Assembly (NCBI GenBank): GCA_027972325.1
Contig: JAPMOS010000072.1
Span: 115,001-179,000, forward strand
Direction: 5' to 3'
Source of the DNA: Paratrimastix pyriformis
Lineage: Eukaryota; Preaxostyla; Paratrimastigidae
DNA length: 64,000 bases
The notes below the pieces were generated by a model. That model did no database searches. It had not been told where the DNA came from and saw only the letters and a list, made by a program, of their open reading frames with translations. Both the position numbers and the translations under genes were made by a program. Positions within the stretch are counted from its first letter, which is position 1. Each line of letters starts with the position of its first letter. Shown here piece after piece: positions 12,683-18,773 of the stretch.

Positions 12683-12850
12683 GGCGGTGCGTGGGGATGA
12701 TCAACTAAGACCGGGCCTCCTCCGCCCCCCCTCCCATTCGTGTTCTAACAAGATGTTGATGCCGTCAATTTCCAGGACGTTCGACGGTCGAAACGGGGGG
12801 GCACCATTTCTGTGTCTCCTTTCCACGGTGGCCATGGCATCCGCATGCGG
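12683..12850. other. Spacer between LRR gene and retroelement
   Basis: Short unique region. The minus strand reads protein-like (DAMATVE, then VLEIDGINILLEHEW) and could be a remnant of the discoidin-like family, interrupted by the retroelement. Confidence 0.25.
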
Positions 12851-13088
12851 AGGCTGTTGAGAGGGTTCTTCTCAAGGCGGCCCCCTGGGCAGCAGCTCCG
12901 GCGCCCACCCCCATCCCGTCTCACGACCAAGCGGCACTGCCCACCCCGGCTACTCCACCCACCTCAGCAGCACCATCGGCCCCGACAGCAGTCCGTGACG
13001 CAGAGACGACCCGACCCAGCCCCCGTCGGCCCCCGCCCACCCCACCCCAGTGGCCCAGCAGGCCGGCCCAGGGAGCAGCTCCTTGCCC

Positions 13089-14147
13089 CTCCCGTCGACC
13101 GGCCCGCCTCACCCGCAGACGTCAGCCCCTCCCCGAGCGACCAGGCCACCACCAACACGCCCGAGGAGGAACACCAGGACCACACGGGCGCACCGCTCAA
13201 CCACAACCGGCCCCGCAGCAGCGAGGACTTCGTGATCTTCTACCCCCGGGGCCGCCAGGAGATGGACAAGGGGCCCAAGCCCGTCGCTGTCTGGAGCCGC
13301 AGGGGTGGACGTGGGCGTCCTTCGCGAGCCGCGCCGAAGCCGAATCGGCGATGCAGACGGCCACCCGGAAGGCGATGTGGGCCAAGTCAACTGCCGAGCG
13401 CCTCGGCATTCGCGTGGAGGCCCGCCGTCGCCGACACACACCCGGCACGCCAACAGGGGACACCGACCGGCCGGCCACAGGCCGAGGGGCCCGTTCGAGC
13501 TCTACTTCCCCGACGGAGCCCCGGATGGCCTCACCCCTGCCCCCACCGCAGTCCGAACCTCCCGTGAGGGCCAAGCTTGGGCGGTGTTCTCCTCGCTGGA
13601 GGATGCCACGGCGGCCCGAGCCGGCGCGAGCACACGTGTGGCCTGGTCGAAGGCCACGGCGGCGCGGCTCAACCTCCCGCCAGAGGCGACGAGCCCACGA
13701 CTCCCGCAAGCGCCTTCAACAGTCAGCCCCACGGCGGTAGGGGCGCCCGCCTCGGGCGGGCGGGTTGCAGCGGGCGGCGGCGGCCACACCCGCGGGGCAA
13801 CGGCCATCCGCGCGGAGAACACCGAGACCGACGACGAGGCCGGGACCGACGAGGCCGAGACTGGGCCTCGCGGTGCCACGCAGAGAAGGCGGCGAGCCCG
13901 AGGGGGATCCCGCCGCCGAGGCCCCACGGGGATCCCACTGACCTGGGCACAGGTGGAGGCTCTCCAACCCCTGAGGAACGCCCGAGCCAGAACTGTGCGA
14001 CCGATCCGCCCCGGGATGCGCGGACCAGCGAGCACTCTCCCACCGACAAACGCCATGGGCTACCCCCCCGAGACCGTATTCATCCTTCCCAACAGCATGC
14101 CCATGGCCCAGCTCACCCTTGCCGATGGCCGCCCCTTTCGCCACTAA
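13089..14147 (+). pseudogene. Retroelement N-terminal region, duplicated domain
   Basis: Two related modules of about 65 residues lie in tandem. The first reads DFVIFYPRGRQEMDKGPKP then, after a frame break near 13308, WASFASRAEAESAMQTAT and MWAKSTAERLGI. The second reads PFELYFPDGAPDGLTPAP then AWAVFSSLEDATAARAGAS and AWSKATAARLNL. Shared skeleton: F-x-I/L-Y-F/Y-P, W-A-x-F-x-S, A-x-x-A, W-x-K-x-T-A-x-R-L. This could be an ORF1-like nucleic-acid-binding fold. I do not recognise the family. The region ends in an Arg-rich stretch and a stop at 14145-14147. Confidence 0.6.
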
Positions 14148-14305
14148 GTCGGGGACCACCGACAAGTCGGGTCCGGTGCCTGGTCCCCCGCCCCGCCACC
14201 ACCCTGGAGCCAGCCACCCCCTCCCAGTGCGCGGCCGCCACCAGCTGCCTCCACCTCTCCCGCCAAGCACCCAACACCCCGACCGGGCCACCCCGCCACA
14301 CGAGC

Positions 14306-14665
14306 ATGGAGGGCAAGGTACCCACCCTGTACCTGCTCTCCGACCGAAGACGCCATGTGTATGTCGGAACGACTGTCAACCTCACCCACCGGGTCCTCCA
14401 GCACAACGGCCTGCTCGCCGGGGGCGCACAGCAGACCCAGGGCCACCGGTGGCACCTCCTGGCCGCGTGCTGGGGCCCCCCGCTGGAGCAGATCAGGCAG
14501 CTGGAGGACCTCCTGCACCGCCCGGACTCTGGCTGCGGCTTCCGCAAACCCGTCACCGTCAAACAGACTGTAGGGGCCCTCTGCTCCTCCTCGCTCGCCT
14601 CAAGCTCCACCGTGCTCACCTGCATCTTGTCGCCCCGATCCGCACCGACCTCGCCACGGCCGTAA
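14306..14665 (+). pseudogene. SLX1-like GIY-YIG nuclease domain in retroelement
   Basis: Starts with MEGKVPTLYLLSDRRRHVYV. The core YLL...YVGTTVNLTHRVLQHNG, followed by GGAQQTQGHRWHLL and a Glu in QLEDLLHRP, matches the SLX1 branch of GIY-YIG nucleases (Y-I/L-L, Y-V-G-x-T-V-N, R, Q-H-N-G, G-G-A-x-x-T, catalytic Glu). Both Tyr motifs, the Arg, the His and a candidate Glu are present. The RING domain that follows in SLX1 is absent. The frame breaks near 14575 before the RT region. Penelope-like elements carry GIY-YIG domains, but this RT and C-terminus are LINE-like. Confidence 0.75.
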
Positions 14666-14959
14666 CCGGCTGCACGGTGACACATGGACCCCTTCTCCAC
14701 ACCTTCCCACCCGAGGCCCCAACCGCCGGCCGAGGCTCCTCATCGACAACCTCAGCAGGGACCCCTCCGGCAGCGTCGCCCTCCCAGGCCCGAGGCAGCC
14801 GCGCTCTCCGACCAGGAGCGCACCTCGCTCCGGGCCGCTGCCACCCTGACCGACCCGGAGGCCATCCTCGAGGCAGTCATCCCCGTCCTGGCCCAGCGGA
14901 CTCCGGCCAGGCGCCCCCCACCCCCACCAGGCCCCCGCGCCCCGCAGGCACCTCGGGGC

Positions 14960-16960: not shown

Positions 16961-17059
16961 CCAGGGCGGGTGGCTGCTGACCAGCCACCTGATCCGGGGT
17001 GGCCGACTGTTCCCCGCTGCCGGGGCAGTGACCCCGAGCCCGCGCGCCGCAAGGAGCTG

Positions 17060-17560
17060 CGCCTGATGAAAGTTGTCGATGTCCTCCGCGCCATGCCCGC
17101 CGATGCCATCCAGGTCTACACCGACGGGTCCTTCGAGTGCGGCCCTGAGGGCCAGCTCCGCGGGGCGCCGCCGCGGTCCTGATCCACCCCGACGGCCGCG
17201 CACTGTCGTTGCGCCGCACCCTCCAGTGGCCCACAAGCAACGCCCAGGCCGAGATCGAGGCCATCCGGCTGGCCATCGACCTCCTCGGCCGGGAGCGGGT
17301 CGGCCGAGACCGGTGCGTGCTGCTGCTGTCGGACAGCGAGTACGCCCTCGGTGCCCTGTGCCGCGCCACCTGCCTGACCCAGTCGCAGCAGGAGGTCCTC
17401 CGACTCCGGGACGAGCTGGTCTCCCGGTGGCCGCGCCTCCTCTGCCATCACGTGCCCTCCCACGTGGACGCGGTGGCCCCGGCTGCCCCCACCTGTGGGG
17501 CAGGCCGACCGGCTGGCCGGCGAGGCCGCGGCAGCCCTGCCCCCACCGACAAGGCCGGCC
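17060..17560 (+). pseudogene. RNase H domain of the retroelement
   Basis: Motifs in order: IQVYTDGSFE (first Asp), a frame break near 17165, then AQAEIEAIRLAIDLL (Glu), VLLLSDSEYALGAL (Asp), HHVPSHVD and, in another frame, GQADRLAGEAAA, which matches the closing AD-x-LA motif of RNase H1-type domains in retroelements. The acidic catalytic positions are kept. RNase H is common in I-, R1- and plant L1-type LINEs but not usual in RLE-encoding LINEs. Confidence 0.8.
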
Positions 17561-17639
17561 CGCCACCCCCATCCAACAGGGCTTGGCCTGCCCGCCGGAG
17601 ATGCCCTTCCGCCCCTCGGGCCCCAAGGACGCCCCGTTG

Positions 17640-18592
17640 CCGTACCCCACCCGACCCTTCACGCTCGCGGTGGCCCGGGGATTCTGCCAGGCCCTCCAGT
17701 GCGAGGAGGAGGCCCGCGGCTGGGCCCCCGGCGCAGCCGATTCTCCTCGGGGTCACCCTGGACGGCCTCGAGCAAAAGCTGGCCGCGCCCGCCTGGCGCC
17801 AGCAGGCCGCCCCCGACTGGAAGGTGCGCCGGCTCGTCTGGCTGCTGTTCGGCACCTTCCCCACCCTGCAAACCATTCGGTGCCGATACGCGCGGAAGGC
17901 CTCAGCATCTGCCGGCGACGCCCCCGGTGGGGTCACCTGCCCACTCTGCCACGGCGGCCCCGAGACCATGTCCCACCTGCTGTCCGGCTGCGGCAGGTAC
18001 CACGACTTCTACACGGCCCGCCACGACCGTGTGGTCCGCCGACTCTGGGCCTGGTTCGGCGGGCAACGCGACTGGGTCACGCGGCATTATATGGGCGTGT
18101 CGGCAACCAACTGTGCGCCCGCCTTCCCACCCACCCTGCTGGCTGGCCGCCGCCCTCCGCGACGTGCACCCCGACCTGGTGTTGCAGTCCCGTGGCTCTG
18201 ACGGCACCTGGTGGCTGCTCGACGTGGCCATCACTGGCCAGACCCACGACTGGCCGGCGCGGGCGGCGGCCAAGGCGGCCCACTACGTCGCCCTCTGCCA
18301 GGCCGTCACGGAGGCCACCGGGCAGCCCTGCCGCTCGGTGCCGGTGATCTTGTCGGCCCGAGGGACCGTGCCCCGGGCCACATGCCAGGCCCTGTCGCGG
18401 CTGACACCGGCCGACCCCCCTGCCGCGCGAACCGACCTCCAGCGGGCCCTCTCCTCCGTCTCGACCCTTCTGGTTCGGGACGCCCTCGCGCTCATGACCA
18501 TGCGCAACGGCGCAGCTGCCGCGGCGGGCCCCGCGCCCTGGCCACGCCGTAGCGGCCGCCCAGGGCCCACGACCCGCCCCACCCGCCCCTGA
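17640..18592 (+). pseudogene. CCHC knuckle and restriction-like endonuclease
   Basis: [18 protein letters not shown] is the C-x2-C-x8-H-x4-C knuckle found before the endonuclease of R2-like elements. After a frame break near 18140 comes VHPDLVLQ, then [11 protein letters not shown] and [10 protein letters not shown], which fits the R2-type PD-(D/E)xK nuclease: P-D, D-x-A and a downstream Lys. The same region is intact in one frame in the second copy (56954-57835, minus), which confirms the reading. Stop at 18590-18592. Confidence 0.85.
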
Positions 18593-18773
18593 GCACCCCT
18601 CCCCATCACCCACACCCATCACTGGGCGGCCCCGCCACCAGGCGGGCCCCCGGCCGGGAGGAGCCACCATACGGGTCATTTGGCCCGGCCCCCCCCGGAG
18701 TGTAACGCATGGCGCGAAGGCGCGAGTAACCTTTCTTCTTGAACTTGTCGCCTGCGCCCTCGCAAATACACAG

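Follow-up and report, generated by a model that had tools for sequence, protein, structure and literature searches.

Organisation of the element in the window

The stretch analysed here (the window) comprised 64,000 nucleotides, 115001–179000 of contig C466, from the 56.06 Mb, 495-contig assembly of Paratrimastix pyriformis. This free-living species is classified in the Metamonada, Preaxostyla, by the taxonomy database. The window was found to carry, between 12869 bp and 18785 bp of the forward strand, a long interspersed nuclear element (LINE), designated family C, which encoded both an SLX1-type GIY-YIG nuclease domain and a restriction-like endonuclease (RLE). Positions are those of the whole window; loci, contigs and proteins of this analysis are coded L, C and P with a number.

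The borders of the element were common to other genomic copies, and it showed 98.8–99.2% identity to four long copies (L061–L064). A preliminary description had placed it at 12850 bp–18773 bp; the element itself was upheld and its limits were corrected. As 16 other loci, which start at the element position where the window copy starts, had sequence in common further upstream (BLAST check on part of them), and the full family C copy on contig C242 spanned about 8,039 bases, the window copy is 5′-truncated. Comparison with three copies spanning the window element gave 9–14 mismatches and 27–34 gap openings, 20–25 of which (about three quarters) were in homopolymer runs. The copy was indeed broken, as had been described, mostly by indels; since gaps far outnumbered mismatches and lay mostly in homopolymer runs, much of this breakage looks more like assembly error than decay.

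The 3′ part of open reading frame (ORF) 1 occupied 12869 bp–14147 bp in interrupted frames and ended with a TAA, as did the C242 copy. It contained a duplicated domain (repeat 1, approximately 13220 bp–13430 bp and spanning a frame break; repeat 2, approximately 13491 bp–13720 bp), and the same pair was present in a related family, D; none of 500 shuffles reached the observed score in either family, repeat 1 of family C having been typed across the frame break. ORF2 opened with an ATG at 14306 bp and began with the GIY-YIG domain (14306 bp–14587 bp; PF01541, 23.7 bits, cut-off 22.6 bits), followed by a conserved stretch (approximately 14588 bp–14740 bp) before the linker to the reverse transcriptase (RT). 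The RT (15262 bp–16980 bp) contained several frame breaks and matched RVT_1 at 50.2 bits between 15997 bp and 16977 bp. An RNase H domain (approximately 17110 bp–17510 bp; PF00075, 23.9 bits over 17149 bp–17900 bp) fell just under the cut-off of 25.8 bits. A CCHC zinc knuckle (17938 bp–17998 bp), which aligned in families A, C and D, and the RLE with its PD..D..K residues and the end of ORF2 (18165 bp–18592 bp) were read by eye. The domains given in the preliminary description were recovered in this copy, and RNase H passed its cut-off in family D.

Related families and contiguity of the GIY-YIG domain and RT

A search of the genome with PF01541 (E up to 10) gave 122 matches, part of which were inspected, and among these were three further LINE families, A, B and D. 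Families A (L066, protein P0002) and D (L067, protein P0001) each had one uninterrupted frame, of 1744 and 1519 amino acids respectively, that ran from the GIY-YIG domain to the RLE in the order SLX1-like GIY-YIG, RT, RNase H-like region, CCHC and RLE. P0002 matched RVT_1 at 96.3 bits and GIY-YIG at 42.6 bits; P0001 matched RVT_1 at 74.2 bits, RNase_H at 27.4 bits and GIY-YIG at 21.4 bits, just under the cut-off. Family B (L068) encoded GIY-YIG and RVT_1 (37.8 and 81.2 bits) in one 1278-amino acid frame that broke later, and beyond the break RNase H-like, CCHC and RPD stretches were read by eye in other frames. On sequence, additional GIY-YIG loci belonged to families A, B and D. A long glutamine-rich (CAG/CAA-type) tract was also present in ORF1 of A and C (L066, L090).

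The GIY-YIG segment of family C had 31 matches in the genome, counting that of the window, and an RT was found downstream in 29 of them (20 by position, eight by locus sequence and one in L067); the matches on C207 and C8 had none in the sequence examined. Conversely, the RT gave 60 candidate matches, 40 of which were scored; in 20 of these 40 the GIY-YIG segment was 1586–1717 bases upstream on the same strand. Fourteen of the other 20 were compared by locus sequence, the remaining six being outside the comparison, and in all 14 the element was cut off at 14580 bp–15993 bp, at or after the GIY-YIG core, each at a different position. Because the related families carry GIY-YIG and RT in one frame, and the spacing of the two is nearly fixed, the earlier suggestion of a nested mixture of elements was ruled out, and the preliminary reading as a single LINE was supported.

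The 3′-ends lay at 18782 bp–18792 bp in nine pieces (the window copy, L061–L064, L008, L015, L024 and L026); those of the 14 cut-off copies were beyond the loci compared. Many copies with a common 3′-end and variable 5′ truncation are what is seen in LINEs. There were no long terminal repeats, as self-comparison of the 8,039 bases of the C242 copy (low-complexity filter) gave the diagonal only. In four of the 14 cut-off copies (L038, L047, L051 and L052) a related upstream segment, 87–100% alike over the 70–241 bases compared, was fused to the LINE, at a different position in each. In the longest of these segments, tRNA-like box A and box B sequences were read by eye; an ARAGORN scan of two of these loci gave no tRNA, and an Rfam scan of three cut-off loci gave one match only, far below the gathering score. 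These four copies are possibly template-switch chimeras with an RNA like that of a short interspersed nuclear element.

Most pairs of a subfamily (L025–L029) had a synonymous divergence (dS) of about 0.5 in the GIY-YIG region versus about 0.1 in the RT, perhaps reflecting a mosaic 5′-end produced by recombination. The window also contained a 75-base 3′-end fragment of family C (7596 bp–7670 bp, forward strand, 93.3% identity), and very long trinucleotide arrays, translating to poly-S/I/H, were spread across it.

Other GIY-YIG loci were of several kinds. A fifth GIY-YIG (L082, C135) was degenerate, with no RT found over the approximately 3 kb followed. Stand-alone GIY-YIG frames, often of 254 amino acids, were present in L070 (C18), with a relative in L072 (C155); 31 PF01541 matches at 43.3–43.8 bits (excluding two LINE matches at 43.6 bits), of which L070 was inspected, are probably one repeated group. 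L083, L084 and L085 (C457, C83 and C46) represented another repeated frame, of up to 1374 amino acids, with a different GIY-YIG.

The GIY-YIG domain

An alignment of the LINE GIY-YIG domains (six rows, four families) showed Y13, L15, Y23, G25, R33, Q36–G39 and E72 to be invariant, among others; the invariant columns included the Y, Y, G, R, H, N and E of the window copy. The domains contained the SLX1-like motifs QHNG, GGA and RPW. When the family A domain was compared with solved structures, five SLX1 sequences (42.5–49.4 bits) and two bacterial UPF0213 proteins were matched and nothing else, at E up to 10. An invariant Asn after the Glu was absent in the LINE domains, and Slx1 is described as being without this C-terminal Asn, unlike the UvrC lineage (PMC1564403). 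By sequence, then, the domain belongs to the SLX1 lineage, as had been proposed.

In a small, weak tree of GIY-YIG domains (12 rows, 74 columns), the LINE domains fell in the SLX1 half, apart from the 254-amino acid frames of the genome (100/100); the long-branched L083 was also in this half. Eukaryotic SLX1 rows were apart from the LINE domains (86/92) and the host SLX1 joined 7wme (98/96), which makes recent capture from this host unlikely. The host SLX1 was a separate gene elsewhere in the genome (L078), intron-containing by reading, and a trapped host SLX1 gene was ruled out on this ground. When the genome was searched for SLX1_C, the one match was below threshold and away from the SLX1 gene, and a Pfam scan of P0001 and P0002 gave no RING or SLX1_C match.

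The ratio of non-synonymous to synonymous substitution (dN/dS) between families D and C was 0.36 for the GIY-YIG domain and the stretch after it (133 codons), 0.29 for the RT, 0.19 for RNase H and 0.33 for the RLE. Within the GIY-YIG region it was 0.15–0.16 in four of five C–C′ pairs, 0.11–0.15 in family A (three pairs), 0.21 between D and L065 and 0.24 for L075 of family B; L076 and L077 were identical and hence gave no ratio. The catalytic positions are invariant and the domain is mostly under purifying selection. Counter to this pattern were the RT of L028 (0.52) and, between D and the degraded, partly masked L065, the RT (0.47) and RNase H (0.55).

The RT and RLE

The best solved matches of the RT were R2 and then the LINE-1 ORF2p, and by sequence the RT is of LINE type; a Penelope-like element was ruled out by RT type, in a comparison set that held no Penelope-like RT. 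For the RT tree, 24 of 75 rows (near-copies, chimeric host proteins, and superfluous APE-type and other rows) were removed beforehand, leaving 51, and P0009, P0034 and P0041 were labelled as carrying an apurinic/apyrimidinic endonuclease (APE) by reading of the sequence. The RTs of the four GIY-YIG families formed one clade (100/99), which in the best tree was on the R2/NeSL-like side (99/97), apart from the APE elements L088 and L089 and from the Dualen-like P0007, P0009 and P0043. The clade is solid; its deep position is not firmly placed by approximately unbiased (AU) tests, in which grouping with two R2 rows had a p of 0.33. The RTs of families A and B shared only 33% and 32% identity, respectively, with their closest counterpart among the other families, so this clade is probably an old one.

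L088 and L089 (C190 and C471) were APE-type LINEs of the same genome, and close to the N-terminus of L089 there was a weak match to UCH (deubiquitinase-like), at 18.1 bits against a cut-off of 23.9. P0043 (2800 amino acids) had APE and RT by Pfam, with RNase H-like and C-terminal CCHC/RPD regions read by eye, and also a PCIF1_WW match just below the cut-off. P0005, predicted in P. pyriformis as a 'hectd1' protein, included a LINE-like segment (91%, covering 35% of the query) and is probably misannotated.

A second copy of family C in the window, on the reverse strand (56739 bp–57839 bp), consisted of the 3′-end only, with an open frame that spanned both CCHC and RLE, and had 93.8% identity over 1110 aligned positions. 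A profile of the RLE, built from 19 of 20 reference-element segments, scored 45.1 bits for this copy (56957 bp–57841 bp), 41.4 bits for family D and 31.2 bits for family A; the best of 14 APE-type or Dualen-like controls scored 18.5 bits, over the zinc knuckle part only. P-D..D..K was kept in the alignment of C and D. In sequence, the CCHC and PD-(D/E)xK at the C-terminus are those of an RLE LINE.

Distribution

The protein searches relied on shared 5-residue words and similar length, so that distant cases could escape. Among the best 8000 candidates by shared words, residues 95–800 of P0001 gave five matches (two Paratrimastix proteins and three RTs of different types), and residues 350–1010 of P0002 matched 65 RT proteins, for none of which a GIY-YIG domain was precomputed. 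The GIY-YIG domain alone (P0002, 352–500; E up to 5, 962 candidates) gave one match, from Paratrimastix. One scan of viral contigs gave no match. In another, a 315-kb contig (IMGVR_UViG_3300025121_000282, L092) encoded a stand-alone SLX1-like GIY-YIG with 49% identity to that of family A over 65 residues, and there was no RT match in the 8 kb examined.

No LINE with a GIY-YIG domain was recognised in the literature searched, most subscription papers, preprints and Repbase being outside the search. The preliminary description had set GIY-YIG outside the usual LINE nucleases, which agrees with an account that assigns APE and/or RLE to canonical non-LTR elements and gives GIY-YIG as a nuclease that Penelope-like elements may have (PMC5753468).

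Discussion

The element shares a LINE-type RT and a C-terminal CCHC and RLE with LINEs of the R2/NeSL/Utopia type, and differs from them in its GIY-YIG, which a profile of the family did not find in 68 reference proteins (best 4.4 bits). It also has RNase H, a domain for which R2 is not listed in one survey, where oomycete forms of Utopia have it upstream of the RT and other Utopia elements are without it (PMC4640811). Like the element, Dualen/RandI has RNase H and two endonucleases in one LINE, APE and RLE (PMC4640811). The second endonuclease of the element is a GIY-YIG in place of the APE, and Pfam found no Exo_endo_phos match, and thus no N-terminal APE of the Dualen type, in P0001 or P0002; kinship of the RTs is neither demonstrated nor excluded. 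Penelope-like elements also combine RT and GIY-YIG, but their RT is telomerase-like and their GIY-YIG canonically C-terminal (PMC11167929), whereas the element has an RT matching R2 and LINE-1, an RLE, and a GIY-YIG that is N-terminal in ORF2. Penelope is listed apart from Slx1 among GIY-YIG groups (PMC1564403); the solved matches of the LINE domain were SLX1 and UPF0213 only, in a comparison without a Penelope-like GIY-YIG. Cellular SLX1, its best solved match, has the same QHNG, GGA and RPW motifs, and the element differs in having no RING or SLX1_C match and in being fused to an RT.

The element is a LINE of a P. pyriformis clade with no description in the literature searched. What was observed directly is the order of the domains and its recurrence in four families, the contiguity, the catalytic residues, the purifying selection and the breakpoint pattern. 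With these, and by analogy with R2 for target-primed reverse transcription, the division of labour between the nucleases and the substrate of the GIY-YIG, we favour, as rather probable, a new clade of dual-endonuclease LINEs in which the GIY-YIG would cut a branched second-strand intermediate beside the first nick of the RLE. The ORF2 protein would bind its own RNA, the RLE would nick the target and the RT would prime on the nick, after which RNase H would strip the template RNA. The end of the cDNA would then join or jump to the upstream target strand, and the GIY-YIG, a branched-DNA nuclease by descent, would cleave the branched intermediate in its second strand and so allow second-strand synthesis to begin. 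R2 protein is reported to cut an open four-way junction in second-strand cleavage (PMC6895275), which fits the preliminary suggestion that a structure-selective nuclease could process the branched intermediate; the GIY-YIG appears well placed for this step because its kin are branched-DNA nucleases, it is under purifying selection and it adjoins an RLE. A narrower version, in which an undescribed LINE clade acquired an SLX1-lineage nuclease for branched DNA and employs it alongside its RLE to cut a four-way second-strand intermediate, is offered more tentatively, at somewhat short of even chances.

Several observations weigh against this account. The RLE of R2 is reported to make both cuts alone (PMC6895275), so that in principle one nuclease would suffice. 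The second acid of the RLE is E in family A and D in families C and D. No RNase_H match was found by Pfam in P0002, though the TDGS and SDS motifs align. There was no ATG between ORF1 and the GIY-YIG domain in the frames of families A and D (L066 and L067), which leaves expression of ORF2 there unaccounted for. Three copies, one of them 5′-truncated, showed no target-site duplication, the longest string shared by the flanks being 4–5 bases. The four LINE GIY-YIG domains were not one group in the small tree, so that it is the RT tree, not the GIY-YIG tree, that points to a single acquisition. The GIY-YIG dN/dS was 0.41 in the fifth C–C′ pair (L029) and 0.80 for L074 of family B; the rows with high ratios appear to be frame-damaged copies. 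Finally, in AU tests neither a grouping of the clade with the entire APE side (p 0.377) nor one with the Dualen-like P0007, P0009 and P0043 (p 0.122) was rejected.

The latter result bears on descent from a dual-endonuclease LINE related to Dualen, with GIY-YIG in place of APE, which we regard as a possible but clearly less probable origin. P0043 has the same order with APE for GIY-YIG; however, it scored weakly with the RLE profile (9.7 bits), the best tree placed the clade with R2/NeSL-like RTs, and the label 'Dualen-like' was given by architecture only, no named Dualen sequence having been compared. Somewhat less likely again is a reversal of the roles, with the GIY-YIG making the first, target-selecting nick, as is thought for that of Penelope-like elements, and the RLE making the second cut or mainly binding DNA. 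The GIY-YIG does occupy the position that APE has in APE LINEs, and Penelope-like GIY-YIG is reported to cut DNA in vitro (PMC11167929, PMC3846280). Against this, the RLE keeps its P-D..D..K in C and D, the RLE of R2 makes both cuts, and the GIY-YIG is nearest to SLX1, which is described as cleaving at junctions (PMC1564403). We think it improbable that the domain is kept for host interaction or junction repair, such as binding of an SLX4-like partner or flap trimming after insertion: it is SLX1-like, and cellular Slx1 is reported to act with Slx4 (PMC1564403), but P0001 and P0002 had no RING or SLX1_C match and the catalytic residues are invariant. An artefact, whether by nested insertion, by capture of the host SLX1 in a single copy or by chimeric assembly, is very improbable: the window copy is broken and isolated GIY-YIG pieces on C135, C8 and C207 had no RT in the sequence examined, but the arrangement recurs in four families on many contigs with near-fixed GIY–RT spacing and in two uninterrupted frames, and the host SLX1, a separate gene, clusters with another SLX1 and not with the LINE domains.

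The second half of LINE integration has been described as very poorly understood (PMC6895275). If the account of a dual-endonuclease clade is true, the element would be a LINE with its own junction-processing enzyme, and, next to Dualen, there would be another route by which LINEs came to have two endonucleases. With a separable SLX1-type domain beside an RLE, each of the two cuts could be traced to its own active site. The element also departs from a classification in which GIY-YIG is assigned to Penelope-like elements (PMC5753468), and is relevant to the ways in which LINEs acquire and swap nucleases.

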